Below, piece after piece: positions 15,360 through 63,809 of a stretch of 64,000 nucleotides of DNA. The stretch's first letter is position 1; every line of letters begins with the position of its first letter. Both the position numbers and the translations under genes were made by a program. The notes under the pieces were generated by a model. It was given only the letters and a program-made list of their open reading frames with translations. It did no database searches and was not told the DNA's origin. The DNA lies in the NCBI GenBank assembly GCA_031268405.1, contig JAIRXF010000006.1:1-64000 (forward strand), in the 5' to 3' direction. This DNA comes from Oscillospiraceae bacterium. Lineage in GTDB: Bacteria > Bacillota > Clostridia > Oscillospirales > Acutalibacteraceae.

Positions 15360-15962
15360 ATGTCACAAGAAATATTTAGAAAATCGAGTCTTGATCGCGT
15401 CTCTTCGCCGGAGAAATTGAATGATTATATAAAGGTCTCCAATCCCGCTATATGGTTGGTTATTCTGGCGCTTTTTGTATTATTAATTGTTGGAGCCATT
15501 TGGGCATCGGTTGGAACATTGCCAACAAAAGTTCGAACGTTGGGCGGGGTATTTATTGGTAACGAAAGTAGCAGTTCGCCCGAGTATGTCAGGTGTTTTG
15601 TATTAGAGTCTAATTTAATTGGTGACAACGACGATACAAACACTAGTGGCGAAGAAAAGAGCATTGTAAAAATTGGACAAACCGCAGAAATTTTACCCGT
15701 TGGAAAAAACTCAAAATCTGACGAATATATAAAGGGCAAAGTCAAAGATATTAATGGGGTACCTTTATCGCTCGACGACGAAAATACACAAATGAGCCCA
15801 GAATTACAAAAAAAACTGAAGCAAATCAGTGGCGGAAGAGAATTATTTGAAGTCGATATTGAAGTAGATAAGTCATCCAAAAACAATAATCCTACGGGTA
15901 GTTATTGCGGGGTGAACATTTTAACCAAAGATGAAAAAATACTCAATTTTCTTTCCAATTAA
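15360..15962 (+). CDS. Short HlyD-like secretion protein of the NHLP export type
   Basis: 200 residues. The N-terminus MSQEIFRKSSLDRVSSPEKLNDYIKV and the membrane helix IWLVILALFVLLIVGAIWASVG match the start of NHLP-system secretion (membrane-fusion) proteins. The rest is much shorter than a normal HlyD-type adaptor: there is no long coiled-coil hairpin, and only a beta-rich lipoyl-like part (VKIGQTAEILPVG...KGKVKDI) remains. It probably sits in the membrane as accessory to the ABC exporter that follows after 114 bases. Good ribosome site GAGGGGG. Confidence 0.75.
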   Translation: MSQEIFRKSSLDRVSSPEKLNDYIKVSNPAIWLVILALFVLLIVGAIWASVGTLPTKVRTLGGVFIGNESSSSPEYVRCFVLESNLIGDNDDTNTSGEEKSIVKIGQTAEILPVGKNSKSDEYIKGKVKDINGVPLSLDDENTQMSPELQKKLKQISGGRELFEVDIEVDKSSKNNNPTGSYCGVNILTKDEKILNFLSN

Positions 15963-16076
15963 TATGTGGGTTAGACAAGTGCGTAAGAATTTTCACCAGA
16001 CATAATCGGCTTTAAATAATTTTACGTTAATCATTTTTCAAGTTAGTTTTCGAAAGAAAGGTGGGAAATAAATTCG

Positions 16077-18380
16077 ATGGCTACTAAAATAGCAAAAGTC
16101 CCGGTTGTTATACAAATGGAAGCACTCGAATGCGGAGCAGCAAGCCTTGCGATGATACTTGCCTATTTTGGAAAATGGGTGCCGCTCGAACAAGTTAGGA
16201 GCGATTGTGGTGTATCGCGAGATGGCAGTAACTTAAAATACATGACAATGGCGGCACGGTCCTACGGTTTAACTCCAAATGCTTTTAAATGCGATCTAAA
16301 AACCGTTAGGGAAGCAAAACTTCCCGCTATAATACACTGGAATTTTAATCATTTTGTGGTGCTTAATGGTTTCGAAAAAGATAAAGTTTCGATAAACGAC
16401 CCCGCTAGAGGAACCGTAAAAGTCAGCATGAAGGAATTTGACGAATCATTCACGGGTATTTTGGTGTCCTTTGAAAAAAATAAAGACTTTAAACCAGGAG
16501 GAAAACCAGACAGCGTCTTAGAATTTGCTCTGAAACGGCTTTCGGGAACACTTGTACCCTTTCTTTTTGTGATAATAACGAGCTTTTTAACAACTGCTAC
16601 AGGACTTGTTTCGCCCGCATTTGGCCGAATTTTTCAAGATAAAATTTTGTCAAACACCAATCCAGATTGGTTGTATCCTTTCATTTTTTGTTTTGCAGCG
16701 GTCGTTTTTTTCGAAATAATCGTTTCTCTTATTAACAACTTGTACATGCTTAAAATTCAAGGTAAACTAGCAATCGTGGCAAATTCTGGATTTATATGGC
16801 ACGTTTTACGTCTTCCAATAGACTTTTTTTCTCAAAGAATGGTCGGAGACATCATCTCCAGACAAAGCCTTAACGAAACTATAGCAAGTACTTTGATCGG
16901 CAAATTTGCACCAATATTATTAAATTTGGGAACCCTGATATTTTATCTTATAGTAATGGTAAGATACAATTTTTGGCTAAGTTTAATCGGAATTGCAGCC
17001 GCCGTATTTAATACATTTTTTGGAAAATATGTTGCCAATAAACGTAGTAATATTCAAAGAATTCAGTCTAGAGACTCCGGAAAAGCAATTTCATCTACGA
17101 TGTCTGGGATAGAAATGATAGAAACAATTAAATCAGCGGGAGCAGAAAATGGATTTTTTGGACGATGGGCGGGATATCAAGCTTCTTTAAATTCCACCAC
17201 AGTGAAATTCGCAAAAATAAATCAATATTTGGGCTCCATATCTACGATTGTATCTTCTTTCATTGATATACTAATAAGAACAATTTGCATTTGGCTAATT
17301 ATGACCGACGACACTTGGAGTATTGGTAAACTCAGTGCATTTACTCTATATTTGGGTTCTTTCATGAATCCGGTGAATCAATTAATAGGAGTTATGCAAA
17401 GTTTAACTCAAATGAGAACCGACATGGAAAGAGTTCAAGATGTTCTTAAGTATAAACCCGACGTTGAATACGACGAATCCAACAATCACGATAAGAAAGA
17501 AGCATTGGTTGATGCTTCTGAAAACAACGAAAAAACAGTCTCTGATGAATCAAATTTAAACAAAAAAAATAATGTCGAGACACCATCTGCCAAAAAACGC
17601 GATGAAAACTTGTCAGACAAAGTGAGTTCAAAAGAGTTTAAAATCGATAGTTATAAAAAACTAAGCGGATCTCTTGAAATGAAAAATGTGACATTCGGTT
17701 ATAACAAACTTTCAGATCCACTTATAAAAGATTTTAATCTATCTTTAAAACCGGGCTCTAGAGTGGCTTTTGTTGGTTTTTCCGGATGTGGAAAATCCAC
17801 TCTCGCAAAATTGATATCAGGGCTTTATAAACCCTGGTCGGGAGAGATAAGTTTTGATGGAAAAAAAATGCAAGAAATAGATCGTCAAGTTCTAACGGGA
17901 TCTTTAGCTGTTGTTGATCAAGATATAATAATGTTTGCAGACACAATAAGCAATAACATTAAAATGTGGGATGAATCGATAGAGGATTTTGAAATGATTT
18001 TAGCCGCCAGAGATGCTCAAATTCACAATGATATTCTAATAAGGGAAGGTGGCTATAATCACCCAGTTTTGGAGGGCGGAAAAGACTTTTCTGGAGGGCA
18101 AAGACAGCGTTTTGAAATAGCCAGAGTGCTCGCACAAGATCCAACAATAATAGTGCTAGATGAAGCAACATCCGCACTCGACGCCAAAACGGAATATGAT
18201 GTTGCAAAAGCTGTTAAAGATAGAGGCATAACTTGCGTTATAGTGGCTCACAGACTTTCTACGATTCGCGATTGCGATGAAATAATTGTTATGGAAAAAG
18301 GAGAAGTTATTGAGAGGGGAACTCACGACGAATTATATACATCCGGCAAATTGTACAAAAAATTAGTAGCCACGGAGTAA
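16077..18380 (+). CDS. C39 peptidase / ABC exporter of the NHLP bacteriocin type
   Basis: 767 residues that cut double-glycine leaders and pump the released peptide out. N-terminal C39 peptidase with Gln13, Cys19 (ALECGAASLAMIL), His92 (WNFNHFVVL) and Asp108 (INDPARG), all catalytic residues present. Six membrane helices at about 160-430, then an unusually long charged linker (about 460-520, Asn/Lys/Glu-rich) and an ATPase with Walker A GFSGCGKST, signature FSGGQRQR, Walker B IIVLDEATSALD and H-loop VAHRLS. Its likely substrate is encoded 78 bases downstream. Confidence 0.93.
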   Translation: MATKIAKVPVVIQMEALECGAASLAMILAYFGKWVPLEQVRSDCGVSRDGSNLKYMTMAARSYGLTPNAFKCDLKTVREAKLPAIIHWNFNHFVVLNGFEKDKVSINDPARGTVKVSMKEFDESFTGILVSFEKNKDFKPGGKPDSVLEFALKRLSGTLVPFLFVIITSFLTTATGLVSPAFGRIFQDKILSNTNPDWLYPFIFCFAAVVFFEIIVSLINNLYMLKIQGKLAIVANSGFIWHVLRLPIDFFSQRMVGDIISRQSLNETIASTLIGKFAPILLNLGTLIFYLIVMVRYNFWLSLIGIAAAVFNTFFGKYVANKRSNIQRIQSRDSGKAISSTMSGIEMIETIKSAGAENGFFGRWAGYQASLNSTTVKFAKINQYLGSISTIVSSFIDILIRTICIWLIMTDDTWSIGKLSAFTLYLGSFMNPVNQLIGVMQSLTQMRTDMERVQDVLKYKPDVEYDESNNHDKKEALVDASENNEKTVSDESNLNKKNNVETPSAKKRDENLSDKVSSKEFKIDSYKKLSGSLEMKNVTFGYNKLSDPLIKDFNLSLKPGSRVAFVGFSGCGKSTLAKLISGLYKPWSGEISFDGKKMQEIDRQVLTGSLAVVDQDIIMFADTISNNIKMWDESIEDFEMILAARDAQIHNDILIREGGYNHPVLEGGKDFSGGQRQRFEIARVLAQDPTIIVLDEATSALDAKTEYDVAKAVKDRGITCVIVAHRLSTIRDCDEIIVMEKGEVIERGTHDELYTSGKLYKKLVATE

Positions 18381-47416: not shown

Positions 47417-49054
47417 CTATCCCTTCCCCTCTCCCCATTGGAAACTGGATGGTTTTTTGTTTGTACTTACGGTTTGTTCTTGAATCGGTTGTGAGATGAC
47501 ATGATTTATGGCCCGCTTTTGAATTAGTTGTTGGAGGGTTTGTTCCTGAATTTCGTACAAGTCTGATTCATCAAATAAATTCTCTTTTCCTACTATTTCT
47601 TCCATTTGCTGATCTATAAAACTGCTAGAAAAATCAAAATCTCCAACCAAGCCTAATTTCGCTAAATCTAATGGCGAAATATAAGATAACTTAAAACAAC
47701 CATCTCCAGCGCACCAAAATATCAAATTCTCTCCCCTCAATGATAAAAAACTTTCTTGCGCAAATTTAGCTTTCAAAATATTAATCCCATAGCTTAAACT
47801 TTCGTCAACTGTTCTTTCTACGCTTCTAGCACTTGTACAGGTGTCGATCGCATCATAAGTTAACTTTTCAGTTGCACTATCATGCAGATATATTTCTTTT
47901 ATTCCATCTCTTGTTTTAAAAAGATAAGTTTGTTCATAAAAAACTTTTTTTGATACTCCTTTGTAATCTGATGCCGACAAGGGACCAAGCTCTACAATTT
48001 TTACTCGATTTAAATAACTTACATCATGCACTGTACTTGTTCTGCCAAATTTATCTCTACTGACGAATTCTTGCTTAATCTCTCCTCCATTGCCGTCTGT
48101 GGGCTCTTCATCTTGCTGCTGATCATAACCAGCGTGACGAATCATTAGACTTTCTCTACTCTCATTGCTCGTAATAATAATTACAAGCTTGTGTAATTCA
48201 ACTCTATGTTCAGAGGGTAAATATAAAAATCCTTCATCCACCATAGTTCTGAACTTTTCATCCATGCCCTCTATATCATTACGAAAAATCTTCTCGGCGT
48301 CATCGAAAATAATCATTGCTTGTTCGTTCTCAATAACAAAATCGGTAACAGATTGTATGCGTTGTGCTCCAGCAGCACTCTTGTAACCAGTATTGATTCC
48401 CAAAGCAAAAAGTTGATCCATTACATTGCCGCCACCATAACTACTGGGCGTTATAAAACCCGGAGTCACTGTCCTTAAACATTTGAGGTTTTTCAGCATT
48501 GCTTCTGCTATGATTTTGGCCGTTTTGGTCTTGCCGTTTCCACTATTGCCGACTATATATATGATGTGAACTCCCCTGCCCGTTGAATCTCTTCTGTCGA
48601 TTCTATCAAAATTATCAACTATAGAAAAAAGAATTTTTTTGATCTCTTTTTTGGCGAATTCATGTCCGGAAATTTGGGCAAATCCCGCATCTAATCTGGG
48701 TTCTAATTCCTCTATGCTTTTCACAAATACATCGCCAGAAGAACTGTATCTTTTAACCGCTACAACAGCGGGCATAACAATTTTTTTGAGACTCGAAATA
48801 GAAGATTCTAAATTTAAAATCACTTGTGTGATCATAAAAATGTTATTTACATAACGGCTAAAACCACTGGCACCACCAGAAAGCGCTGAAAATACAGCAG
48901 CCATCACCCCACCGCCAATCACTTCCGAGGTTTCGCTACCTTGATCGTTGGTTTTTCCTTCTTGCGAAATATTTTCTTTACCGGCAAAAGCCGGGGAATA
49001 AGATGAAAAACAAAAACTAATTGTCAAAATAATAGAAAATAATTTCTTATACAT
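47417..49054 (-). CDS. Secreted AAA+ ATPase, ClpB/Torsin-like
   Basis: 545 residues. A clear signal peptide (about 1-24, hydrophobic core then SPAFA-GK), a second hydrophobic stretch near 50-75, then one AAA+ module: Walker A IVGNSGNGKTKTAK (169-176), Walker B AMIIFDDAEKIF with DD instead of DE, sensor-1 LVIIITSNES, and a ClpB-like C-terminal small domain (DTCTSARSVERTVDESL). ATP is not normally available outside the bacterial cytoplasm, so a secreted AAA+ protein is unexpected; eukaryotic Torsins are the known lumenal relatives. Gln/Glu-rich C-terminus (EQTLQQLIQKR). No partner gene is adjacent. Export into a host cell is one possible explanation, not shown. Confidence 0.8.
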   Translation of the reverse strand: MYKKLFSIILTISFCFSSYSPAFAGKENISQEGKTNDQGSETSEVIGGGVMAAVFSALSGGASGFSRYVNNIFMITQVILNLESSISSLKKIVMPAVVAVKRYSSSGDVFVKSIEELEPRLDAGFAQISGHEFAKKEIKKILFSIVDNFDRIDRRDSTGRGVHIIYIVGNSGNGKTKTAKIIAEAMLKNLKCLRTVTPGFITPSSYGGGNVMDQLFALGINTGYKSAAGAQRIQSVTDFVIENEQAMIIFDDAEKIFRNDIEGMDEKFRTMVDEGFLYLPSEHRVELHKLVIIITSNESRESLMIRHAGYDQQQDEEPTDGNGGEIKQEFVSRDKFGRTSTVHDVSYLNRVKIVELGPLSASDYKGVSKKVFYEQTYLFKTRDGIKEIYLHDSATEKLTYDAIDTCTSARSVERTVDESLSYGINILKAKFAQESFLSLRGENLIFWCAGDGCFKLSYISPLDLAKLGLVGDFDFSSSFIDQQMEEIVGKENLFDESDLYEIQEQTLQQLIQKRAINHVISQPIQEQTVSTNKKPSSFQWGEGKG

Positions 49055-51654: not shown

Positions 51655-51730
51655 CCGGGTGTGGCGCAGATGGTAGCGCGCTTGAATGGGGTTCAAGAGG
51701 CCGCTGGTTCAAATCCAGTCACTCGGACCA
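51655..51730 (+). tRNA. tRNA-Pro (anticodon GGG)
   Basis: 76 bases with encoded CCA. Acceptor CCGGGTG/CACTCGG with one G-T pair, D-stem GCGC/GCGC, anticodon stem CTTGA/TCAAG with loop ATGGGGT, T-loop TTCAAAT, discriminator A. It is the last recognisable core feature before the peptide operon and a possible integration target. Confidence 0.93.
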
Positions 51731-51945: not shown

Positions 51946-52893
51946 ATGTATAATGAACTTATGAAAATTGCGGGACTAACCAAAATAATTGATAGAAAAG
52001 TTTTATTGAAAGATGTAAATGTTAGCATTCCCGAAAACAGTTTAGTGGCTATATTGGGTAAAAATGGTGCGGGCAAATCCACTTTTATTAAATGTATTGC
52101 AGGTCTTTATAAGATTGATCACGGGAGTATCACTGTTTCTGGACTAAATTGGGATAAAAAAAATGATAAAAAAATAAAAAGACTTATATCTTACATACCC
52201 GACAAATCTAATTTTGATTATAATTTGACTGTAGAACAAAATATATTACATCATGCCTCGCTGTACGGAATAAATGAAAAGCGAGTTAAAAATAAAGTTG
52301 ATGATTTGTTTAAATTCTTTGATTTGTATGAACGTAAAAACGACACTATAAATCATTATTCTCTTGGCATGCAAAAAAAAGCATTAATTATACGGGGCCT
52401 TATTTCAGAACCACAAATATTGGTTTTAGATGAACCCACCAATGGCCTCGATCCTGGAGCAGAAAAGGATTTTATAGATAAATTATTTGAACTAAATAAG
52501 CAAGGAATAACCATTATATTGTCAACACAATCTTTAAATATAGCCAAACGTTTTGGAATATCAATTTATATAGAAGAGGGTATGGTAAGGGAAATATCCG
52601 CTAACAAAATATCAGATCAAACAGATTTAAATTTTATATCAGTAGAAACTCAGCCTATGGATTTAGAACAGATAGAAAAAACACAAATCACAATTAATAA
52701 ACATGAGTTTATTGCTAAAATAAAAACTGGAAATAATTGTATAAAAATCGAGCTATCAAATAATGAGTCATATGTTATCAGCAAATTAATAAATGACATT
52801 TTGATGCTAGATATATCGATAATCAAAATTGAAATTAAAAATGATAATTTAAAAAATTATGAAGAGTATTTGCATGGAATAGAAGGGAGCTAA
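51946..52893 (+). CDS. ABC transporter ATPase, ABC-2 exporter type
   Basis: 315 residues. Walker A LGKNGAGKST (38-46), Q-loop region, signature HYSLGMQKKA, Walker B ILVLDEPTNGLDPG and switch STQSLNI in place of the usual His, followed by about 100 C-terminal residues of regulatory type. Energises the permease encoded six bases downstream. As the first gene of the operon it is the natural exporter or self-protection pump for the product. ATG with GGGG ten bases upstream. Confidence 0.92.
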   Translation: MYNELMKIAGLTKIIDRKVLLKDVNVSIPENSLVAILGKNGAGKSTFIKCIAGLYKIDHGSITVSGLNWDKKNDKKIKRLISYIPDKSNFDYNLTVEQNILHHASLYGINEKRVKNKVDDLFKFFDLYERKNDTINHYSLGMQKKALIIRGLISEPQILVLDEPTNGLDPGAEKDFIDKLFELNKQGITIILSTQSLNIAKRFGISIYIEEGMVREISANKISDQTDLNFISVETQPMDLEQIEKTQITINKHEFIAKIKTGNNCIKIELSNNESYVISKLINDILMLDISIIKIEIKNDNLKNYEEYLHGIEGS

Positions 52894-52899
52894 TAATTT

Positions 52900-53649
52900 T
52901 TGAAACGTTTTGATTTCGTAAGTGTGTTCAAAAAAGAGTTTAATGCCTCTTTTAAGCTTTTGACAATAGTTCTTGGAGGGATGGTAACACCATTATTCAT
53001 ATATGGTTTCTTTTCAATGGTTGTGGGGGGCAATAGTTTTGATTCTTACATGCCTTATAAACATTACATGGTAAGCGGAACGGTAATATTTCAATTGGTA
53101 TATTCCACTTTTTATCAAGCTTCTTATTCTACATTTTTTTCATCTAACGTTACTCAAACAATGGATGAATTACTGACTTCTCCGCTCAATTCTAAAGATA
53201 TATTACTTGGTAGGACGTTAAGCACTTCTATGATAACAGTTATAGTTAGCATCCCTCTTTTAATTTGCTTGATCTTCTGGAGTGGACTTTTGTTTAATTT
53301 GGTTTGGTATTTGATTGCATTAGTAGGTTTGGCCGTTTTAGCAATAATATTTTCGTTGTTAGGAACTTTACTTGGAATACTGGTAAATAGTGAATTTAGT
53401 CTGATAAATTTTGCGAATATGATCGTTATTCCATTAACTTTTGTATCTGATACATTTGTAAAATTAAGCGCAATTCCATCATTAAAATATATTCTTTATT
53501 GCTCTCCAATAAAATTAGCAAATGATGTTGTACGTGAAGCTTTGGTACTTTCAAAATTAAATTGGTTAAGCGGATTGATACTGGTTTTATTTATGGTTGT
53601 ATCTTGGGTTGTTGTGTACAAAGTATTTGATAAAAAATTAAAAGACTAG
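52900..53649 (+). CDS. ABC-2 type permease
   Basis: 249 residues with six transmembrane helices, ABC-2 family: N-terminal coupling helix (FVSVFKKEFNASFKLL), TM1 near 20-40, the conserved cytoplasmic loop TMDELLTSPLNSKDILLGRTLST, and the C-terminal FVKLSAIPSLKYILYCSPIKLANDVVRE. TTG start right after GGGAG. Forms an exporter with the preceding ATPase; the likely cargo is the operon product. Confidence 0.9.
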   Translation: MKRFDFVSVFKKEFNASFKLLTIVLGGMVTPLFIYGFFSMVVGGNSFDSYMPYKHYMVSGTVIFQLVYSTFYQASYSTFFSSNVTQTMDELLTSPLNSKDILLGRTLSTSMITVIVSIPLLICLIFWSGLLFNLVWYLIALVGLAVLAIIFSLLGTLLGILVNSEFSLINFANMIVIPLTFVSDTFVKLSAIPSLKYILYCSPIKLANDVVREALVLSKLNWLSGLILVLFMVVSWVVVYKVFDKKLKD

Positions 53650-53660: not shown

Positions 53661-54359
53661 ATGAAAGTTTGTATCATTCAAAAGCAACAGTCGAAAACCC
53701 CAGCTAACAATATAAGGTCTGCATTAGAACAGTTGCCTAAAGCAATTGAAAAAGGTGCCGATTTAATTTGTTTTCAAGAGTGGTTTTTAGGAACTAATCC
53801 TCCAGATAAAATACCTAATAAATTCACACAAATGCTTTCAAAATTTGCAATTGAAAATGGCGTTACGATAGCAACTGGCAATATGCGAATTCAAATAGAT
53901 GATATTGGGAAAAAATTTATACAGTTGACTTGTCTCATAGACAAAAATGGTGAAATCATTATAAAGCAGCAGAAAAATAATTTATATAAGGGCGAAATGC
54001 CTTGGTATGTGGGCGGTAATAAATTGGAAAGCTGTTCTGTTGGTTCAGATGTGTTTGTTGTTACGAGTGGTTTTGATAGTGTTAATGAGAAAATTTATAG
54101 TAAAATCAAAGATAAAAAACCAAGTATCTGGATAGCACAAGCTAATGAATTTGCGTTTGATGCAAAAATAAGCATGTACGATAAATTAATAGATATGATG
54201 AAAAAACGTAGTAAAGAGTTATCATGCACTATAGTTGTTCCAATGATTTTGGGGAATTTTTACGGTGCTAACTATACTGGAAAAAGCTTTGTTGCTAAAA
54301 ATGGTGATGTTGTATCTAAAATAGACGATTTACCAAATCTTCTGATCTGTGAGGTATAA
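53661..54359 (+). CDS. Nitrilase-fold protein lacking the catalytic cysteine (1)
   Basis: 232 residues of the carbon-nitrogen hydrolase fold. Catalytic Glu40 (LICFQEWFLG) and Lys105 (QKNNLY) positions are kept, but the Cys position reads Gly137 in VVTSGFDSVNEKIY (family: CYDxxFPE). A normal amidase or nitrilase mechanism is therefore not possible. The C-terminal strand GKSFVAKNGDVV matches the usual dimer region. First of four related genes in the operon. It may act as a scaffold, a pseudo-amidotransferase partner of the AsnB-like ligases, or have a new activity. Confidence 0.85.
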   Translation: MKVCIIQKQQSKTPANNIRSALEQLPKAIEKGADLICFQEWFLGTNPPDKIPNKFTQMLSKFAIENGVTIATGNMRIQIDDIGKKFIQLTCLIDKNGEIIIKQQKNNLYKGEMPWYVGGNKLESCSVGSDVFVVTSGFDSVNEKIYSKIKDKKPSIWIAQANEFAFDAKISMYDKLIDMMKKRSKELSCTIVVPMILGNFYGANYTGKSFVAKNGDVVSKIDDLPNLLICEV

Positions 54360-54362
54360 ATA

Positions 54363-55439
54363 TTGAAAAATATCAATTTAGAATTAGCCAATCCAGGTGG
54401 TAGACTTTATCCAGTTTCTGTTTGCCTTCAGATGGTACTCGATTTTAAGGGCGAAAAATATCAAGTTTTCGAAGTTGAAAATATGTCTGGACATCCATAC
54501 GGTTGGTTTTATGTTAATCAATTAATAGCAGGCACTGGTCAAGAGGTGGAAATCACTCCAGGAACTGAATTAACTAATTCAATTAAAATAGCAGCGGACA
54601 ATATCGGCTATAAATATACACATTGCGAAACAGATACTTGGTCTGAAATGGAAAATTTTATACATTTTGAGCTGAATAACAACAATCCTATCATATTTGG
54701 GCCTGTGTCATACAAACATTTAATTTATCAAATTAGTGCGCACCGTGCTACAGAAATCGCAAGCCATTATATAGTATTAGTTGGCTGCAATAATGATATT
54801 GTTTATTTTCATGATTCAAATGGTATGTCTTACGTTCCTTTTACTTTTGAGGAATTACAAAAATCATGCACTGCTGGAGTAGTTTTACCGGGAGCTAAAA
54901 GATTTTCCGCTATAACTTTAAAGGAAAAAATCTCAAATTTTAGTGCTATTGAAATTTTTAAAAAAGTGATTGAAAGAGGCGTTGATAGTTACCACGATAA
55001 AAAAATTCGACAAGATGGATACATTGGTCTTATTTGCTTAAAAAAATATGCAGAGGATATAGAAAAATGGCTTGGAGCAAAAACACAATTACAAAAAGAA
55101 ATAATAATGCGCAAATTGGGATTGTTTTTTTATCCAAAGAGTAATCAAATAAGAGCAGATGCCATAACGTATATGCAAATTTTCAAAAAATTAATGCCGT
55201 CTGTTTCAAATATGATCAACGAATTTTGTTCTTTATTTACTAAAGCATGTGTCTTGTATTGTGAAGGAGCTTCTATAATTACTCCAAATCTAATATCTTT
55301 CGATGAAGAAAAAATGAAATCTCAACTTAGCTTGCTAAAATTTAATGCTTTGAAATTGTACGAATTGGAAACAAAAGCTTATGAAAAATTAAAAGAAATC
55401 AATATTGTAATAAAGGATTTTCAGGAAGGGGGTGATTAA
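54363..55439 (+). CDS. BtrH/C39-like papain-fold protein
   Basis: 358 residues. The first 180 resemble the BtrH N-terminal / C39 cysteine-protease-like fold: RLYPVSVCLQMVLDFKGEKY, then ASHYIVLVGCNNDIVYFHDSNGM with the His and Asp positions kept. In active C39 enzymes the Cys sits five residues before the conserved Leu; here that place is Pro17 and a Cys (Cys21) is next to the Leu, so catalysis is uncertain. The C-terminal half is helical (KTQLQKEIIMRKLG). BtrH itself is an acyltransferase in butirosin synthesis. It lies one base before the peptide gene, so leader cleavage or acyl transfer on that peptide is a reasonable guess. TTG start after GAGGT. Confidence 0.75.
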   Translation: MKNINLELANPGGRLYPVSVCLQMVLDFKGEKYQVFEVENMSGHPYGWFYVNQLIAGTGQEVEITPGTELTNSIKIAADNIGYKYTHCETDTWSEMENFIHFELNNNNPIIFGPVSYKHLIYQISAHRATEIASHYIVLVGCNNDIVYFHDSNGMSYVPFTFEELQKSCTAGVVLPGAKRFSAITLKEKISNFSAIEIFKKVIERGVDSYHDKKIRQDGYIGLICLKKYAEDIEKWLGAKTQLQKEIIMRKLGLFFYPKSNQIRADAITYMQIFKKLMPSVSNMINEFCSLFTKACVLYCEGASIITPNLISFDEEKMKSQLSLLKFNALKLYELETKAYEKLKEINIVIKDFQEGGD

Positions 55440-55440: not shown

Positions 55441-55584
55441 GTGAGAAGTGTATATAACTATTGTGGCCCCGCTAAAGTCGACAAACAAAAAATGAACAAC
55501 AGTTGCAATTATTGCGGTCCTGCTAAAGTACCTGCTGTTGTCAATAAAAATGTTTGTAATTACTGCGGTCCCGCCAAACAATAG
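55441..55584 (+). CDS. Three-repeat NYCGPAK peptide, candidate RiPP precursor
   Basis: 47 residues, not seen by simple ORF calling because of the GTG start and short length; a near-perfect ribosome site (AAGGGGGTGA) lies seven bases upstream. The peptide has YNYCGPAK at 5-12, CNYCGPAK at 22-29 and CNYCGPAK at 39-46, an exact 17-residue (51-base) period, with variable spacers between them and only four residues before the first block. It has five Cys; the first block has Tyr5 in place of the leading Cys. The third-position codon choices differ between repeats (for example GGC-CCC and GGT-CCT), so the motif is held by selection and not by recent duplication. There is no classical leader, so recognition may be by the repeats or spacers. 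Each block may yield one product copy. Confidence 0.85.
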   Translation: MRSVYNYCGPAKVDKQKMNNSCNYCGPAKVPAVVNKNVCNYCGPAKQ

Positions 55585-55592: not shown

Positions 55593-55630
55593 CAGGGGGA
55601 TACTAAGTTAATATTATGCGGTATCCCCTG
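55593..55630 (+). promoter_or_regulatory. Hairpin after the peptide gene
   Basis: CAGGGGGATAC (55593-55603) pairs with GTATCCCCTG (55621-55630), one bulged G, 17-base loop; nine bases after the peptide stop. There is no T run after it, so it is more likely an mRNA-stabilising or attenuating hairpin that keeps peptide mRNA more abundant than the enzyme genes. Confidence 0.6.
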
Positions 55631-55660
55631 CATCCGGTTAACAATTCAAGGGGAGATAAT

Positions 55661-56167
55661 ATGGAACTTATGGTTTTAAAACCAAAGCGTATAAAAGGTT
55701 TTAATTTTGCCTATGTGACAAACACTGGAAGTTATAAAAAATTGTCCAATACTGTAAATTACCTAGAAAACATTTTAGAAAAAAATGATATTAAATTTGA
55801 CAATGTGGTTTCAGTTTTAATGGACGACCCTAATGTTACTGAAGAGTCACAATTAAAATGCGAGTTGGGTGTAATTTTAAGAGACTACAATGAAAACAAC
55901 CCGGCACTTGCTGCTGATATCAAAATCAAACGCATTGATGATTTTGTGGGTTTGGTTTTCGATTATACGGGAGAAATACAGGGGATAGATAATTATTATA
56001 AAGCAATAATTAAAAAAATGACAGAAGCTTCTTATATAATAGCGGGGTTCCCTATCGAATTTTATATAAAAAGTCCGATAAATTCTGAAAAAGATGGCTT
56101 GTGCCACACAAGGATAATTATTCCGATTTTTTATACATGGGAGAATAAACGTGAAATTAATGATTAG
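55661..56167 (+). CDS. GyrI-like small-molecule-binding protein
   Basis: 168 residues. GyrI/SOUL-type beta-alpha pattern: FAYVTNTGSYKKLSNTVNYLENILEKNDI, middle VSVLMDDPNVTEESQLKCELGVIL (the DDP and C-E-L-G box of the family), and IAGFPIEFYIKSPINSEKDG...IIIPIF. Such domains bind cyclic or aromatic small molecules and serve as sensors, sequestering proteins or occasionally hydrolases. Here it may bind the product as immunity protein. No DNA-binding part. ATG 55661 follows GGGGAG; the last 17 bases overlap the MfnB-like gene. Confidence 0.75.
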   Translation: MELMVLKPKRIKGFNFAYVTNTGSYKKLSNTVNYLENILEKNDIKFDNVVSVLMDDPNVTEESQLKCELGVILRDYNENNPALAADIKIKRIDDFVGLVFDYTGEIQGIDNYYKAIIKKMTEASYIIAGFPIEFYIKSPINSEKDGLCHTRIIIPIFYTWENKREIND

Positions 56168-56846
56168 TGTTGTTAATAAGGATGAAGCATTGATTGCCCG
56201 CGATTCGAAAGCGGAGCTAATAGATATTAAAAATCCCGAAGAAGGTTCATTGGGTGCTCAGAGCCCTTTGGTTATTAAAGAGATAGTCGACGTTTTACCT
56301 TCTGATATTGAGATCAGTGCCACTGTTGGTGATGTCCCTTATCTTCCGTGTACTATCGCACAAGCGGCATACGCCGTCGCCTCATTTGGGGTAAAGTATG
56401 TAAAAATTGGTTTCAAGGGATGTAAAAACAGCGAGGAAGCAAAAAATTTAGCTAATAAAATTGTAAATTCAGTAAAAGAATTTGATTCAAACATTATAAT
56501 CGGCTGTTATGCAGACTATAAAGAAAATAACACATTATCACCATTTGAAATTTTAGAAGGTGTTAAAAATACTGGAGTTTCGGGGATTTTGATTGATACA
56601 TTGGGCAAAAAAGGTAAAAACCTTTTTGATTATATGGGTGCAGAAGAATTAAAAAAATTCACTTACGAAACTCACATGCACAATCTTTTAGTTGCATTGG
56701 CAGGGTCAATAAAATATGATCACATTGGTGTTTTAAAAGAAATGGGTGCAGATATTTCGGGAGTTAGGGGAGCTATTTGTGATGGAGACCGAATGAGTGA
56801 AATAAACCCTGAAAAAATCAAAAAGTTTATGAGTCAAATAGCTTAA
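56151..56846 (+). CDS. mfnB: (5-formylfuran-3-yl)methyl phosphate synthase homologue (MfnB)
   Basis: 231 residues, the length and the motif order of MfnB, which joins two glyceraldehyde-3-phosphates to a furan aldehyde phosphate, the first step to methanofuran. Motifs: ELIDIKNPEEGSLGAQSPLVIKEI, SATVGDVPYLPCTIAQAA, KYVKIGFKG, LIDTLGKKGKNLFDY, ALAGSIKYDHI and GVRGAICDGDR. Lys27 (Schiff-base lysine in the methanogen enzyme), Lys85, Asp149 and Lys153 fall at the places of its catalytic residues, so it is probably active. Methanofuran is unexpected in a spore-forming Firmicute. GTG start with GGGAG, translationally coupled to the GyrI-like gene. Confidence 0.9.
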   Translation: MKLMISVVNKDEALIARDSKAELIDIKNPEEGSLGAQSPLVIKEIVDVLPSDIEISATVGDVPYLPCTIAQAAYAVASFGVKYVKIGFKGCKNSEEAKNLANKIVNSVKEFDSNIIIGCYADYKENNTLSPFEILEGVKNTGVSGILIDTLGKKGKNLFDYMGAEELKKFTYETHMHNLLVALAGSIKYDHIGVLKEMGADISGVRGAICDGDRMSEINPEKIKKFMSQIA

Positions 56847-56867
56847 TTGTGCAAAAGGAAGTTTTTT

Positions 56868-58130
56868 ATGTTCAGTGGTATAGCCGGTGGAATAAACTTA
56901 AATGAAAAAACAATTAACTCTATTTCAAAATGTTTGGGAAATAGATCGCTTTGTGCATCCAAAATTTCTAATATTGCTTTTTTAACAGTAAACTCAAAAT
57001 TATATAATTCAAAAGAAGTAAATAATTTATCTAATGATGAAATTGCTTTACTTGCTTTTGACGGAAAATTATATGGTTGTAAAAACAAAAAACGTTTTGA
57101 TATTGTGAATTCTTTTTCCTCTAAAAGTAATTTTAATGAAGTATATGGAAAATTTGCCGTTGCCGTTGCTAAAACCGATGGAAGCATTTTATTGGCAAGG
57201 GATTATCCGGGATCGATTCCTCTATTTTATTGCTTGGAAAACAACGTTTTTGCATTTTCTACTGTGTATGGATTATTGGAAAAAATAGGTTTAAAAAAAG
57301 TTCAAGCAGTGCAGCCGGGCACGAATATACTTTATAAAAAGGGTAAAATTTCAACTATTAACTGGTACAATTCTACTGTCAAAAACTCCCCTGATTATGA
57401 TGCTGTTTCGAATATAGATAATTTGTTTGACGAAACCATAAAAGAAATTATGTCGTGCTATAAAAACGCCCCTGTTGGAATTATGTTATCCGGCGGTGTG
57501 GATTCGGCTTTATTATCTCATTATATTTCTAAATATACTTCAAATGTTTATTCATATGTAATGGACGGCGAAGACAAACACTATGGGGAGCTTGTTAGCA
57601 AGCTTTTTGGTTTTAAAATCAATATAATTGATAATTCTCTAATAGAAAGAGAAAAAATTTTATTTACGAGCTATAACTACAACAAACAATTTGAAAATCT
57701 AAACAATTCTTTATTCGTACCTACGTACGTTATTGCCAAAAAAGCAAACGCAGATAATGTAAAATTGCTTTTCAGCGGAGACGGTATTGATGAATTGTTT
57801 GGCGGATATGATTTGAGTTGTGATACGCAATCTATGAATATTGCAATAAGAAACATGGTTGACAGTATGTTTTTATACAGCTTAGACAGACTTCATGTTG
57901 CATGCAACACAAATAATGTAAGTGTTGCCGTGCCATTTCTTCATCAAAAAATTATCGAAGCAGCTTTTTCTATAGATGCTAAATATAAACAAAATAAGTA
58001 CTTAATTAGAAAAATTGCTGAAAAATATTTACCCAATAACATAGCTTGGAGGGAAAAATCACCATTACAAGTTTCGACTCACAGCTATGAATTATTATAT
58101 AAAAGGAAATGGATTGGGCTTCATCATTAA
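56868..58130 (+). CDS. Asparagine-synthetase-like ATP-dependent ligase without Ntn cysteine (1)
   Basis: 420 residues, shorter than AsnB. The N-terminal Ntn domain begins MFSGIAGG; AsnB has MCGIAG, so the nucleophile Cys is missing (Ser3 is nearest) and glutamine cannot be used as amide donor in the usual way. The synthetase domain keeps the PP-loop SGGVDS (208-213), FSGDGIDELFGGYD and the C-terminal SVAVPFLHQKIIEAAF. Such enzymes adenylate a carboxylate and form an amide or lactam, as in beta-lactam synthetase and lasso cyclases. ATG 56868 follows AAAAGGAAG. The next gene is a diverged paralogue. Confidence 0.88.
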   Translation: MFSGIAGGINLNEKTINSISKCLGNRSLCASKISNIAFLTVNSKLYNSKEVNNLSNDEIALLAFDGKLYGCKNKKRFDIVNSFSSKSNFNEVYGKFAVAVAKTDGSILLARDYPGSIPLFYCLENNVFAFSTVYGLLEKIGLKKVQAVQPGTNILYKKGKISTINWYNSTVKNSPDYDAVSNIDNLFDETIKEIMSCYKNAPVGIMLSGGVDSALLSHYISKYTSNVYSYVMDGEDKHYGELVSKLFGFKINIIDNSLIEREKILFTSYNYNKQFENLNNSLFVPTYVIAKKANADNVKLLFSGDGIDELFGGYDLSCDTQSMNIAIRNMVDSMFLYSLDRLHVACNTNNVSVAVPFLHQKIIEAAFSIDAKYKQNKYLIRKIAEKYLPNNIAWREKSPLQVSTHSYELLYKRKWIGLHH

Positions 58131-58157: not shown

Positions 58158-59459
58158 ATGGCGTATTATTGGGGAGGCTGTAACCTAAGCAAAAATGATA
58201 TAAATCGTTTAAAAGATAACAAAACAACTGGTAATACATCCGAATATAAACATTATAATGCTGATAATTTTTATATTTACTATTCAGAAAATAATATTAA
58301 AGTTTCTAATAGTGATAGCGAATCATTTTTATTAATGAACGGCTACATATATAATCCTTATATGTCTAATTATTCAGGCCCTAAAAATTTTTCTGAACTA
58401 GATAAATACTTGCGCACAAACGATAATCTGAACGATATTTATGGAGCTTTTACAATTTGTTTTAAAAATAAAAATAGCGTATTACTTGCTCGGGATTACC
58501 CTGGCATATTTTCTGTTTATTATGTTTTAGATTGCGACAAATTATATTTTTCGAACGACTATAATCGTTTGCGTTTTGCGGGATTTAAAAATATTAGATA
58601 TCTAAAGCCGGGTTCTAGCATTGAATACCACCTTAAAAACAAAAATATAAAACAAATCGATCACTACAATCCTATTTTACCAACTTTGCACAACGATCCT
58701 ATAGGTCAGTTTGATGATATGCTATTTAATGTAACTAAGTCGCTTTTTATAGCTACATCAAACTTTGATAAAAAAGTCGCTACATTGCTATCGGGCGGCG
58801 TAGATTCTTCGTTGATAACATATTATTTAAGTCAAATTTGTTCAGACGTTTGTGCATTTACAATTGATGGTAGAGATAATGTTTTTGCTCAAGAAGTAAG
58901 CAATTTACTTAATATTGAACATAAATTTATAATTATTAATGATGAACAATGGAAGAGTGGTTCTAATATTTTCCCTCGAAAAATATATAATGACGGATTC
59001 TATGAATTAGCAAATTCTCTATTTTTACCTAATTATTTTTTACTTCAGGAAATAAAAAAATATCCAATAAATTTAGCATTTAGTGGTGCTGGTTCCGACG
59101 AACTTTTTGCATCATATAGCAGACATCTTATGTATATGAGAGATATTTCTTATGCGGCCAGAAAAATAGTTGATGATTGCCACATATACTATTTGGAAAC
59201 TGTAGAGCTAGCTAGCAAACTTTCTAATAATCCTATTTGTTTAATGCCATTTTTTGCTAAAGAAATTATTAATTTTGGACTAGCTCTTCCAGATAAATTT
59301 AAAATTCATAACAGCATGGAAAAATGGATAGTTAGAAAAGTCGCTGAAAAGTATCTACCTAAAACTACGTCATGGAGAGAGGCAGCCCCTTTGCAATACA
59401 GTACCAATAGCTTTAAAAAAATCAATGGTAATAGTTATTACGAATCATATTATTGTTAG
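58158..59459 (+). CDS. Asparagine-synthetase-like ATP-dependent ligase without Ntn cysteine (2)
   Basis: 433 residues, same architecture as the preceding gene. The N-terminus MAYYWGGCNL lacks Cys2; Ntn-like strands follow (SFLLMNGYIYNP, YGAFTICFKNKNSVLLARDYPG). PP-loop SGGVDS (212-217), then FSGAGSDELFASYSRH and LMPFFAKEIINFGLALPDKF. DG/GD metal-binding loop is GAGSDE here versus GDGIDE in its neighbour, so substrates may differ. The two proteins may work on different carboxylates or form a heterodimer. Ribosome site AAAGGGG. Confidence 0.87.
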   Translation: MAYYWGGCNLSKNDINRLKDNKTTGNTSEYKHYNADNFYIYYSENNIKVSNSDSESFLLMNGYIYNPYMSNYSGPKNFSELDKYLRTNDNLNDIYGAFTICFKNKNSVLLARDYPGIFSVYYVLDCDKLYFSNDYNRLRFAGFKNIRYLKPGSSIEYHLKNKNIKQIDHYNPILPTLHNDPIGQFDDMLFNVTKSLFIATSNFDKKVATLLSGGVDSSLITYYLSQICSDVCAFTIDGRDNVFAQEVSNLLNIEHKFIIINDEQWKSGSNIFPRKIYNDGFYELANSLFLPNYFLLQEIKKYPINLAFSGAGSDELFASYSRHLMYMRDISYAARKIVDDCHIYYLETVELASKLSNNPICLMPFFAKEIINFGLALPDKFKIHNSMEKWIVRKVAEKYLPKTTSWREAAPLQYSTNSFKKINGNSYYESYYC

Positions 59460-59470: not shown

Positions 59471-60331
59471 ATGAAAAACAACGCAATGGAATTAAACTCC
59501 AATTATTATCAATCTTATATGAAAGGTAATTATGATAGGGTATCAAAAAATTATGACGATAACATGGATTATAAGTGGCAAAATGACAACGATCCAAGGT
59601 ACGATTTTGAAAACACAGTTTTATCGGCATGTGAAGCAAAACCATCCAACTTTTCAGCCCTTGACGTTGGTACGGGAACAGGCAGAATTTCTTTAATGAT
59701 CGCATCAAAATTTCCAAACGCTAATGTAAGGGGTCTAGATCAATCAACGCAAATGATAGAAATAGCAAAATCTAAAACTAAAGATATGCATCTGAAAAAT
59801 ATATCTTTTGATCAGTATAGCATTGAAACAAAACTTCCTTATTCGGAAAAGATATTTGACATTGTAACATGCTCTTTAGCAATGATATACTTTACGCAAA
59901 AAGATAAGTTTATAGGCGAAACAAATCGGATTTTAAAAGCGGGTGGTTTTTGCTGCGTAAGTACCATTGGTAACGAAGATATGAATTCGGTTCTTGAACC
60001 ATTTTGGGAATTATATTACAAGTTTAATCCAAGTTTTGTTAACACTTTTAATCCAAGGCTTAGTGAAGAACAGTCTCGAAAGCTTTTTGAAGACGCAGGT
60101 TATTCTGGGGTAAAAGTAACAAGTTTCAAGGAAAATGTGATTTTCGGATCACTTAGGGATTATATGGCGCTTTTTAATACTTACGGTTTAAGTGGATTAT
60201 TGTTTTTTCTTCCAAAATCTGCCGCAATACAACTTATGGATGAATATCAAAAAAAATTGGAAAGTATGTGCGGACCAGATGGCAACCTTGTAGTTTTGCG
60301 TGAAGTGCTAATAACCAAGGGTCAAAAATAA
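59471..60331 (+). CDS. SAM-dependent methyltransferase, class I
   Basis: 286 residues. Motif I ALDVGTGTGRISLMIA, acidic residue GLDQSTQMIEIAK, motif IV FDIVTCSLAMIYF and post-motif RILKAGGFCCVST, as in ubiE-type small-molecule methyltransferases. N-terminus YDDNMDYKWQNDNDPRYD is a substrate cap region. Likely methylates N, O or C of the operon product or intermediate. AGGAG ribosome site; 11 bases after the ligase gene. Confidence 0.92.
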   Translation: MKNNAMELNSNYYQSYMKGNYDRVSKNYDDNMDYKWQNDNDPRYDFENTVLSACEAKPSNFSALDVGTGTGRISLMIASKFPNANVRGLDQSTQMIEIAKSKTKDMHLKNISFDQYSIETKLPYSEKIFDIVTCSLAMIYFTQKDKFIGETNRILKAGGFCCVSTIGNEDMNSVLEPFWELYYKFNPSFVNTFNPRLSEEQSRKLFEDAGYSGVKVTSFKENVIFGSLRDYMALFNTYGLSGLLFFLPKSAAIQLMDEYQKKLESMCGPDGNLVVLREVLITKGQK

Positions 60332-60350: not shown

Positions 60351-61154
60351 GTGAGCTTAAAAGTTGAAGTTATCCAGTTAAACGTGGTTCAAGGTGAATT
60401 TCAAGAAAATTTGATAGCAATAGAAACGTATGTAAAGCAAAAAAAATCTGACACAAAACTTTTAGTATTTCCGCAGTATGCAATTACAGGTTATCCTACT
60501 TTAAAAATTTTAAATTTGCTAAACAGTGAACATGATAATTTAATAAAACAAATTTGCGAAATAGCACGTAAATATAAAGTGGGATTATTGTTTTCTATTC
60601 CCAAAAACGTAGAAAAAAACTCATTCCAAGATTGCATTTGTTATGTAAATGAAAATGGGACTATTGAAACAACATATATTCGTATTAATAAATTTTGGAG
60701 AGAAGATAATTGCATAACTGGAAAAGAAATCAAAATTATTAACATAGACAATATCAAAATCGGAATCATGGCTGGAGATGATATTTATTATCCGGAAATT
60801 TCACGGCAATTAGCACAAAATGAAGTAAGCTGTATAATTTGCTTATTTTATAATGCCAAACGCAAATTAAGTGGAAATAATTTTGATTTAGCTGATATTT
60901 TAAAAAGTTTGGTTATGGCATCAGCGGTAATAAATGAAGTGGATTTTTTACTCTGTTCGGCAAATGGTACAATTGATCAAGATGATAATCAATCCATAAT
61001 TGCGGGTTCAGTATTAGTGGGGAATAGTATGATAATTTCATTAAGTGAACCAAAAGAAATAAACATTGGCAACAACGAAAATTCTTTTACATCCATAATA
61101 GATGAAAATAAAATTAATTTTTACCGCATGATAAATCGAAGAAATCAACAATAA
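60351..61154 (+). CDS. Nitrilase-fold protein lacking catalytic Glu and Cys (2)
   Basis: 267 residues, carbon-nitrogen hydrolase fold closest to NAD-synthetase-type glutaminase domains. Family FPELALTGYP reads FPQYAITGYP (Gln42 for Glu), Lys114 is kept (INKFWRED), and the Cys site is Gly142 in GIMAGDDIYYPEISRQLA. Two of three catalytic residues are gone. The loop after the former Cys keeps the family shape (DDIYYPE). GTG start with GAGGGAG. Clearly more diverged from the other nitrilase-like proteins of the operon. Confidence 0.87.
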   Translation: MSLKVEVIQLNVVQGEFQENLIAIETYVKQKKSDTKLLVFPQYAITGYPTLKILNLLNSEHDNLIKQICEIARKYKVGLLFSIPKNVEKNSFQDCICYVNENGTIETTYIRINKFWREDNCITGKEIKIINIDNIKIGIMAGDDIYYPEISRQLAQNEVSCIICLFYNAKRKLSGNNFDLADILKSLVMASAVINEVDFLLCSANGTIDQDDNQSIIAGSVLVGNSMIISLSEPKEINIGNNENSFTSIIDENKINFYRMINRRNQQ

Positions 61155-61177: not shown

Positions 61178-61909
61178 GTGCGTATAGCAATTTCTGGAAT
61201 AAAACAAATCGTAGGAAACGATCAGCATAGAATGGACAATCGGATTTCTGATGGCGTACGTACTGCGTTAAATACAGTTACTAAACAAATTTATGAGTGT
61301 GGCAAAAACGATGTTTCGTTGGTTTGTTTTCCCCAATGGTTTATAGGGTTTGGAAGTGTAATTGAATACCCCAATGAAATTACGGAAGCAATTTCAGTTG
61401 CAGCTAAAAACAACAAATTAGATGTGGTAACTGGAACGTTTAGAACTCCTGGGTTCGGAATGAAAAGTAAACCAGTGTCACTTTTTATAAATCATGAGGG
61501 AAAAATAGTTGGTGAGCAAGGCAAGAAAAATTTATATGAACTTGAGGAGCAATGGCAATTATCATCAAACGATGTCAATGTTTTTGAATCGCAATTGGGG
61601 AAAATTGTAATTAGCCACGGTGATGATTGTGTGGACCCAAATGTATATGAACAAATAAAAAAAATCAAACCAAACATATGGGTATTACAAACTAATGATG
61701 CTATAAATACTGGTAAATTCGAAGCTTGCAGTTTATCATTTGAAGAACTTGCGAAATTAAGAAGTAGAGAATTAGAATGTACAATTTGTGCACCTATGTT
61801 GAATGGTGAATTTATGCATGTAAACTACAGTGGTGATGGCTTTATTTGCGATAGTTTGGGAAAAACAATTAAAATATCTGGTTCAAAAGAATTATTGTTG
61901 TATCGGTAG
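61178..61909 (+). CDS. Nitrilase-fold protein lacking catalytic Glu and Cys (3)
   Basis: 243 residues, paralogue of the first nitrilase-like protein (both share FxxWFxG and the LCxxxSxELxCTIxxPM-like end). Glu is replaced by Gln53 (CFPQWFIGFG), Lys116/117 remains (GKKNLYELEE), and the Cys place is Gly148 (VISHGDDCVDP). A Cys three residues later could not take over without a shift of the loop. GTG start with AAGGGGT. Confidence 0.85.
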   Translation: MRIAISGIKQIVGNDQHRMDNRISDGVRTALNTVTKQIYECGKNDVSLVCFPQWFIGFGSVIEYPNEITEAISVAAKNNKLDVVTGTFRTPGFGMKSKPVSLFINHEGKIVGEQGKKNLYELEEQWQLSSNDVNVFESQLGKIVISHGDDCVDPNVYEQIKKIKPNIWVLQTNDAINTGKFEACSLSFEELAKLRSRELECTICAPMLNGEFMHVNYSGDGFICDSLGKTIKISGSKELLLYR

Positions 61910-61917: not shown

Positions 61918-62661
61918 ATGGAGATAATTTTTGCTTTAGACATAAAAAACGAAAAAGTAGTTCACGGGATTCAAGGTAAAAGATACTGGTATGCTCCACC
62001 TAAAAATAAGCTATTTGACCCCCCTATTCCCGAAAATATTGTAAACACCGTTATAAAAAAATATGGTATTAATAAATTTTATATTGCGGATCTTAATTCT
62101 ATTATGAAAAACGGAAATAATTTTTTCATCCTTGATTCATTAATTCAAAAATTTAAATTTTCTGATTTTTATATAGATGCGGGAATTTATAATCAAGATT
62201 ACATTAGCGATTATTTGAAAAAAGGATATTCCAAGGTAATCATCGGGTTAGAAACTCTTAAAAATATAGGGATATTGAAAGACCTATACAAACAATACGG
62301 TGATAAAATTTTATTTAGTTTGGATCTTTATAATGGCATTCCAGTTACATCGGATAGAAATTTGTTAAATAAACAAGCAAGTGAAATTATAAAATTAGTG
62401 AAAAATTATGGAGCTAAAGAGATTATATTTTTAGATATTAATAGCGTAGGCGCTATGTTGGGACATAATTCAGTGTATACATCACTGGTTGAAACTTGGG
62501 GCAGTGAAATAGACATTTTTGTAGCTGGCGGAATTAAATCTATTGAAAACATATCTGAATTTAAAAAATTGGGAGTAAAGGGTGTCATTTTAGCATCTCT
62601 AATATACGGCAATCTTATAAACTATGATGATATTAGGGGATTAAGTGGGAGTAGAACATAA
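61918..62661 (+). CDS. HisA-like TIM-barrel protein of the methanofuran/methanopterin-associated type
   Basis: 247 residues, HisA/HisF fold. The start FALDIKNEKVVHGIQGKRYWYAPPKNKL (motif D-x(5)-VVHG-x-GxR-x2-Y) is the form found in HisA-like proteins encoded with C1-coenzyme genes, not in true HisA. Asp8 and Asp136 (SLDLYNG) sit at the two catalytic Asp positions of HisA, and VAGGIKSIENISEFKKLGVKGVILAS is the phosphate-binding end. It has no his-operon neighbours, so a role in making or modifying the furan or a phosphate intermediate is likely. Its stop and the next ATG overlap by one base. Confidence 0.78.
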   Translation: MEIIFALDIKNEKVVHGIQGKRYWYAPPKNKLFDPPIPENIVNTVIKKYGINKFYIADLNSIMKNGNNFFILDSLIQKFKFSDFYIDAGIYNQDYISDYLKKGYSKVIIGLETLKNIGILKDLYKQYGDKILFSLDLYNGIPVTSDRNLLNKQASEIIKLVKNYGAKEIIFLDINSVGAMLGHNSVYTSLVETWGSEIDIFVAGGIKSIENISEFKKLGVKGVILASLIYGNLINYDDIRGLSGSRT

Positions 62662-63809
62662 TGTGGTATAGCAAACAATTTTTATGTGAAATGGTTAATG
62701 ATTTCTATATCTATGATGAAAATATTTTGGGCGATATGGGTAAAATCGAACATTGTTACGACCATAACAGTAAAATTTCAAAAATTTTTCTGGATATAAC
62801 CAATAAATGTAACATACGATGCAGACATTGTTTTACGGACGCAAAAAACAACCCCAATATAAAGGAACTAAATACCGATGATATAAAAAAAATAATAAAC
62901 GACTTAGTAAAATTGAACATTAACAGACTGGCATTAGGCGGCGGAGAACCGCTTGTTAGACCTGACATATACGAATTAATTCATTACGGAAGCGAACGGG
63001 GATTAAGAATTCACATTAGTTCTAACGGCCTTTTATTAACTGAAAATAATATAAAAAAGCTAAAAAAATGCGGGTTGAATTCAATACAAATTAGTATAGA
63101 CAGCAGTATTGCAGCTCAACATGATTATCTTAGAAATTGTCCGGGATTGTTTGATAAATGTCTCGAGACAATAAAGAATATCAAAAAGCACCGCATAAAT
63201 TTATTGGTATCAACTACTATCACTAAATTAAATATCAATGAACTTGACGACATAGCTAAAATGGTAAAATCATCAGGAGTTAGATTGCATAGATTTATAA
63301 GATTTGTTCCCGTAGGTAGAGGGAATGATTCCAAAAATATGCTCTATGTCGAAGGAGAGATGCTATCAAAAAAAGTAAGTCATTTGCGTAAAAAATATGC
63401 CAAATATTTTTTCGGAAATCCAAAAAATTATTTTGGTATACCTATAACAACTTATGAAGATAAAAAATACAAAAACAATCCAATTGGTTGCGAGGCTGGT
63501 AAATTAAGCGTAGATATACTTCCCAATGGCAACGTTGTGCCCTGTAATTATTTGGGCATAGACGAGCAATGGATATGTGGAAACATCGTTGACAATACGC
63601 TGGAACATATTATAAATAATAGTTCTGTATTAAAAAAATTCAAACACTTGAGTGGTAAAAATATTGCAAAATGTTTTGATTGTTTATCTAGCAAAATTTG
63701 TGGAAAGGGCTGTAGAGCAGTTGCCTATAATTTGCACGGTGCTATCGATGCACTTGACCCATGTTGTACAAAATTGATGGGGGAATATGAAAATGAAATT
63801 AGGGGTTAG
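62661..63809 (+). CDS. Radical SAM/SPASM enzyme, peptide-modifying type
   Basis: 382 residues. Radical SAM cysteines C50-x3-C54-x2-C57 (CNIRCRHC), GGGEPLVR, then a SPASM domain with GCEAGKLSVDILPNGNVVPCNYLG and CFDCLSSKICGKGC for auxiliary clusters. Relatives modify ribosomal peptides (thioether, C-C or epimer formation) or small cofactors. There is no N-terminal RRE domain, so substrate recognition must come from elsewhere. The next gene starts inside its last codons (17-base overlap). The repeated Cys-containing peptide of this operon is the obvious candidate substrate. Confidence 0.92.
   Translation: MWYSKQFLCEMVNDFYIYDENILGDMGKIEHCYDHNSKISKIFLDITNKCNIRCRHCFTDAKNNPNIKELNTDDIKKIINDLVKLNINRLALGGGEPLVRPDIYELIHYGSERGLRIHISSNGLLLTENNIKKLKKCGLNSIQISIDSSIAAQHDYLRNCPGLFDKCLETIKNIKKHRINLLVSTTITKLNINELDDIAKMVKSSGVRLHRFIRFVPVGRGNDSKNMLYVEGEMLSKKVSHLRKKYAKYFFGNPKNYFGIPITTYEDKKYKNNPIGCEAGKLSVDILPNGNVVPCNYLGIDEQWICGNIVDNTLEHIINNSSVLKKFKHLSGKNIAKCFDCLSSKICGKGCRAVAYNLHGAIDALDPCCTKLMGEYENEIRG

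Follow-up and report, generated by a model that had tools for sequence, protein, structure and literature searches.

The closest described counterparts of the locus analyzed here come from methanofuran and methylofuran synthesis and from peptide maturation. In Methylorubrum extorquens, Orf17, which has MJ0703 as a homologue, is essential for methylofuran, and its function is unknown (PMC8141765). MfnB alone converts D-glyceraldehyde-3-phosphate (D-GA-3-P) in vitro, with kinetics available (PMC11365854), amination of the furan aldehyde is assigned in archaea to the aminotransferase MfnC, which could not be identified unambiguously in M. extorquens (PMC8141765), and the known acceptor of MfnF is the phenol of tyrosine or tyramine (PMC8141765; so also its NCBIfam name). 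In HisA, the ProFAR isomerase, D8, D127, T164, and D169 are given as important residues (PMC2667513). HExxxH is the metal site of TldD, and TldD/E proteins are used in peptide maturation (PMC10885120).

The window, that is, the whole stretch of 64,000 nucleotides that was analyzed, lies on contig 2 of an Oscillospiraceae bacterium assembly that totals 1.03 Mb and is 97% complete. It contains most of a cluster that combines genes of both kinds and continues past its end (coordinates above 64000 continue the window numbering on the contig):

51946-52893, +: ABC exporter ATPase, DrrA-like (7e-51, below cutoff)
52900-53649, +: ABC-2 type permease (profile match)
53661-54359, +: Nit1, nitrilase-fold paralogue with Gly at the catalytic Cys position
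54363-55439, +: BtrH_N-like protein, possible Cys peptidase or transferase (weak, 17 bits)
55441-55584, +: candidate precursor peptide, 47 aa (GTG start; alternative in-frame GTG at 55432)
55616-56167, +: protein with a GyrI-like small-molecule-binding domain (probable true start, 55661)
56151-56846, +: MfnB, (5-formylfuran-3-yl)methyl phosphate synthase (Pfam 4HFCP_synth, 5.7e-73)
56847-58130, +: asparagine-synthetase-like protein 1 (Met-Cys start; may retain the glutaminase Cys)
58158-59459, +: asparagine-synthetase-like protein 2, without Cys2
59471-60331, +: SAM-dependent methyltransferase (profile match)
60351-61154, +: Nit2, nitrilase-fold protein with replacements at catalytic Glu, Lys, and Cys
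61178-61909, +: Nit3, nitrilase-fold paralogue (catalytic Glu to Gln, Cys to Gly)
61918-62661, +: HisA-like protein, Orf17/TIGR00734 type (ATG start, 247 aa, intact ORF)
62661-63809, +: radical SAM/SPASM protein 1 (nearest models AhbD, TIGR04053, NirJ2, and mycofactocin maturase, none above cutoff)
63787-65295, +: Nit4-amidohydrolase fusion, running past the window end at 64000
65304-65900, +: MfnE homologue (1e-27)
65888-67054 (L030:3889-5055), +: TldD-like protein with AMIIGY where HExxxH is expected
after the TldD-like gene, to 68231, +: TldE-like protein
68283-69407, +: M24 peptidase
69425-70456, +: radical SAM/SPASM protein 2
70453-71496, +: MfnF-type protein (TIGR03123, 2e-62; MfnF, 3e-42)
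71508-72260, +: nucleoside-phosphorylase-like protein

We favor, by a little, a reading of these sequences in which the Orf17-type protein belongs to a four-protein aminomethylfuran module, and works after MfnB, the furan acceptor being tyrosine in a small peptide. The cluster has homologues of all three proteins of the methanofuran/methylofuran module MfnB-MfnE-MfnF, together with Orf17; unlike in that module, no adjacent MfnC, MfnA, MfnD, or polyglutamate ligases were seen, and fhc/H4MPT genes do not lie beside it. The HisA-like protein shares with M. extorquens Orf17 and MJ0703 the fold, both catalytic Asp residues, 11 family residues, and the linkage to mfnB, mfnE, and mfnF, but it is very divergent (29% best identity), its host has no C1 pathway, and peptide-modification genes are added in its cluster. 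Radical SAM/SPASM peptide clusters and those of TldD/E-processed peptides (pearlins, mycofactocin, PQQ, and microcin B17) have in common with this locus a small peptide gene, SPASM proteins, a TldD/TldE-like pair, a peptidase, and an exporter, whereas here the peptide is multi-repeat without a clear leader, a furan module is present, the TldD lacks HExxxH, and pseudo-nitrilases are encoded.

All genes between 51946 and 72260 are on the + strand and closely spaced, apart from two wider gaps, one of 221 bp after the BtrH-like gene, where the repeat peptide lies, and one of 51 bp. Gly replaces the catalytic Cys in all four nitrilase-fold proteins (Nit1-Nit4), and the TldD-like protein does not carry the motif that characterizes TldD/E metalloproteases; having lost their catalytic motifs, these proteins cannot run the textbook reactions, a point against the favored reading. 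Histidine decarboxylase was rejected as an identity for Nit3, the matches being far below cutoff. Used as plasmid queries, the Nit-amidohydrolase fusion and radical SAM protein 1 returned generic family matches only, and PADLOC returned only a generic radical SAM likeness to viperins and weak QueC matches.

The HisA-like protein, which contains VVHGIQGKRYWYAPP, matches Pfam His_biosynth (E=3e-35), and among NCBIfam models TIGR00734 hisAF_rel (1e-30, 107 bits) ranks above TIGR00007 HisA (1e-26). Its 107 bits fall below the NCBIfam cutoff of 179.85, a value that none of the phylum-sample genomes reaches, even those with canonical clusters; the family as used here is thus wider than the cutoff allows. 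In a tree with the HisA and HisF proteins of its relatives, it joins, with support of 100/98, 27 HisA-like proteins from archaea and bacteria that are encoded near mfnB or methylofuran genes, although its long branch (2.62) leaves its exact position inside the Orf17 clade unsure. Eleven residues were chosen as conserved among the mfnB-neighbor set and different in HisA (R22, Y25, Y55, A57, I62, D87, E112, T113, S134, L172, and V177), and 11 of 11 are present. The acid/base aspartates D8 and D136 are retained; in an alignment to Thermotoga maritima HisA (1qo2), with which the TIM barrel is shared, D8 and D127 are kept, whereas T164 and D169 correspond to Leu172 and Val177. A search for solved structures of Orf17-type proteins gave none. 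In a plasmid search, the best E-value among the matches shown was that of an Azospirillum HisA-like gene (3e-18, against 5e-10 for true HisA), which sits in a methylofuran/H4MPT locus as judged from its ORFs. A first contig scan of genomes with the HisA-like protein as query found no relatives, and matches from the same family and order were rejected as Orf17 relatives, the tree placing them with true HisA or HisF. Membership of the protein in the Orf17 family (TIGR00734, MJ0703-type), as a divergent representative, is well supported by these comparisons. The preliminary description had assigned it to a HisA-like type associated with methanofuran/H4MPT genes, with which the tree and the signature residues agree, and the true HisA proteins that it had named as telling against its reading did not prove to be the closest homologues. 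It was also right to call the reaction unsettled, but the family is not wholly uncharacterized: deletion of orf17 abolishes methylofuran in M. extorquens (PMC8141765).

The ~5 kb between mfnB and the HisA-like gene are taken up by genes in the same direction, none more than 27 bp from the next, a layout consistent with one transcription unit, as had been proposed from the window at the outset. In MfnB itself, K27, K85, D149, and K153 are invariant in a Bacillota alignment. Co-occurrence of the two families, which the preliminary description had suggested checking, is tight across the 398 genomes sampled from the phylum: the top six scores against TIGR00734, at 107-148 bits with the next at 91, all belong to MfnB genomes, and the Orf17 type is present in 6 of 7 genomes with an above-cutoff MfnB against 0 of 391 others (Fisher p=1.3e-12), which argues that the pairing is not due to chance. 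The sole MfnB genome without it (G163) is 83% complete and has mfnB at a contig edge. Among 80 mfnB loci kept from 84,980 species, Orf17 was found within the ~10 kb of flanking sequence covered in 22, among them 14 of the 23 loci where mfnE and mfnF are present as well; on some archaeal contigs and on one further contig (L077), it stands beside mfnB without mfnE or mfnF, these contigs being short or the genes perhaps lying elsewhere. In our cluster MfnB, MfnE, and MfnF are all present, with NCBIfam matches below the equivalog cutoffs, so that a complete furan-coupling module (MfnB, MfnE, MfnF, and Orf17) is a well-supported prediction. That the pairing occurs where the C1 pathway is missing, and away from the cofactors concerned, holds insofar as neither FTR nor an FhcA/FwdA-type subunit was found in this 97% complete genome, and a methylofuran-dependent C1 pathway is therefore not expected; the second part needs amending, however, as homologues of mfnE and mfnF follow within 10 kb past the window end.

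Two full-length ATP/ADP translocases (C25:65478-66926 and C13:325-1746) would fit an intracellular energy-parasite lifestyle. A parasitic clade of Acutalibacteraceae with small genomes has been described (PMC10579323), and this genome fits it in size and translocases, the two traits on which, and not on phylogeny, the comparison is based. Samples of the family (398 genomes) and of the order (375 genomes) gave no other MfnB, only short weak matches, one and three respectively; the cluster was therefore probably acquired and not inherited. The gene directly after xerC in the sister genome G001 lies past the cluster here, and a tRNA-Pro (GGG) at 51655-51730, just upstream of the cluster, is a possible insertion site. 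Horizontal gain is the simplest reading, although rearrangement complicates the site.

The preliminary description did not report the repeat peptide, which is inside the window; the remaining peptide-type gene set lies outside it. The peptide at 55441-55584 reads VRSVYNYCGPAKVDKQKMNNSCNYCGPAKVPAVVNKNVCNYCGPAKQ and has three copies of NYCGPAK at 51-bp spacing, and the ribosome-binding-site-like AGGAAGGGGGTGA stands directly upstream of its ORF. Six nucleotides vary between the repeats, 6 of 6 at third codon positions and all synonymous (chance 0.0014), and this purely synonymous divergence points to selection on the repeat amino acids. A degenerate DNA pattern for NYCGPAK occurs three times in the genome, always in this ORF, and 0 times in the control; three single, non-repeated matches in viral contigs were taken as chance. 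The peptide has no family match other than sub-threshold zinc-finger matches (from CNYC motifs) and no recognizable leader, and no PqqD/RRE Pfam match was found in the window cluster. Directly after the ORF, a hairpin with a 10-bp stem and no T run (55595-55629) could adjust how much peptide transcript is made relative to enzyme transcript; its region is no more stably folded than shuffled sequences (z -0.83), and promoter and terminator scans gave site numbers no higher than in shuffles. As in RiPP clusters, a small gene for a putative precursor stands beside modifying enzymes. Each of the three repeats has a tyrosine, the residue whose phenol MfnF is known to use, and the peptide is a plausible furan acceptor.

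On the functions of their families, MfnB would make a furan aldehyde phosphate out of two glyceraldehyde-3-phosphates, MfnE would put a second phosphate on the aminated furan, and MfnF would link the furan to a tyrosine-type phenol by an ether bond. Orf17 would work after MfnB, most likely turning the furan aldehyde phosphate into the amine by HisA-like acid/base proton transfer over the imine of the aldehyde and an amino donor, with Asp8 and Asp136 as the residues involved. Such a proton transfer is chemistry near the rearrangement carried out by HisA; our assignment of this single reaction is nevertheless tentative. The acceptor would be the tyrosine in the NYCGPAK copies of the peptide, a ribosomal product on which the methyltransferase and the radical SAM/SPASM and asparagine-synthetase-like proteins may also act and which the ABC pair may export, and the end product would be a peptide natural product bearing a methylofuran-like head, not a C1 coenzyme. 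In its most specific form, to which we give somewhat less than even credence, the proposal would describe a new class of ribosomal peptides from a parasite-like clostridium bearing ATP/ADP translocases, in which Orf17, MfnB, MfnE, and MfnF O-alkylate the NYCGPAK tyrosines with aminomethylfuran and dead nitrilase and TldD folds are reused for peptide handling. No homologous cluster was found for comparison with the peptide-furan link, and the literature searched contained no report of methanofuran enzymes used in a peptide natural product. If the link is true, methanofuran chemistry has been recruited for such a product.

What Orf17 does matters beyond this locus, as it represents an essential step of methylofuran synthesis that has so far no assigned reaction. 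Four Streptomyces plasmid loci (L140-L143, near 12000-16300) carry a cassette of mfnB, aldehyde dehydrogenase, alcohol dehydrogenase, and methyltransferase genes, which resembles our cluster in having mfnB outside C1 metabolism together with a methyltransferase but differs in that no Orf17, MfnE, or MfnF was found nearby in 24.7 kb (four loci read). These cassettes and the activity of MfnB alone associate Orf17 with the amination-and-coupling branch, not with furan formation. Here Orf17 is kept with only MfnB, MfnE, and MfnF, without polyglutamate, tyrosine-decarboxylase, or H4MPT genes, and this minimal module, taken with the Streptomyces MfnB that has no Orf17, would locate its step between furan aldehyde and coupled furan, where it is open to direct assay. 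The expectation that partnership with mfnB could help define the HisA-like reaction was thus borne out to the extent that the predicted step narrows to one after MfnB, most likely amination. Orf17 need not itself perform the amination, since archaeal MfnC is already assigned to it, and outside the cluster the genome has one strong class I/II aminotransferase. We consider it unlikely that Orf17 acts before or with MfnB, isomerizing or channeling triose phosphates or a furan precursor: its ancestry among TIM-barrel sugar-phosphate isomerases and its tight linkage to mfnB even where mfnE and mfnF are not adjacent (Archaeoglobi loci and L077) would suit such a role, but MfnB needs no partner to convert glyceraldehyde-3-phosphate in vitro (PMC11365854), and the Streptomyces mfnB cassettes have no Orf17 near them. 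That the protein is a divergent true HisA of histidine biosynthesis is extremely improbable, for although the Pfam family and the fold agree with it, the tree and the residues contradict it, and TIGR00734 and protein searches of the genome found no further HisA/HisF protein, hence no partner HisF, nor was a histidine operon found around the gene.

The nature of the product is less constrained. The furan could instead go onto a small molecule, as an aminomethyl amide made via the two asparagine-synthetase-like enzymes of the cluster, with the NYCGPAK ORF encoding an unrelated zinc-binding-like peptide; the weak zinc-finger matches and the lost TldD active site speak for this. We nonetheless find it doubtful, because the peptide ORF lies inside the operon behind a strong ribosome-binding site, its neighbors form a peptide-modification repertoire (two radical SAM/SPASM proteins, the TldD/TldE-like pair, and the M24 peptidase), and a tyrosine recurs in every repeat where tyrosine or tyramine phenol is the known MfnF acceptor. 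Far less probable still is that genome reduction has left the cluster as a decaying relic of a methylofuran/H4MPT pathway. The reduced size of 1.03 Mb, the missing C1 genes, and the several partners with lost catalytic motifs could all be so explained, but the ORFs of the cluster are all intact and tightly packed, the absence of mfnB from sampled relatives makes gain probable, and the synonymous-only divergence of the repeats points to selection.

None of the 80 mfnB loci holds the remainder of the cluster, and the only partial parallel among them is L077, an Elusimicrobia contig of 8.35 kb. Its set at 1695-7141 comprises genes for an Orf17-type protein and a glycosyltransferase together with those for MfnB and for a radical SAM/SPASM protein in which a PqqD-like domain matches weakly, and histidine genes adjoin this set on the opposite strand; the bin of a Sumerlaeota genome includes an overlapping, identical stretch (L078). 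This suggests that mfnB and Orf17 with a peptide-type radical SAM protein are not unique to our genome, although L077 is too short to judge. Elsewhere in the window, a radical SAM/SPASM-looking protein (8073-9494) resembles SCIFF maturases by eye, a peptidase-containing ABC transporter, preceded by an HlyD-like protein (15360-18380 for the two), looks like a bacteriocin exporter, and an AAA+ ATPase with an apparent signal peptide (47417-49054) gives the impression, from its sequence, of torsin-like eukaryotic proteins.
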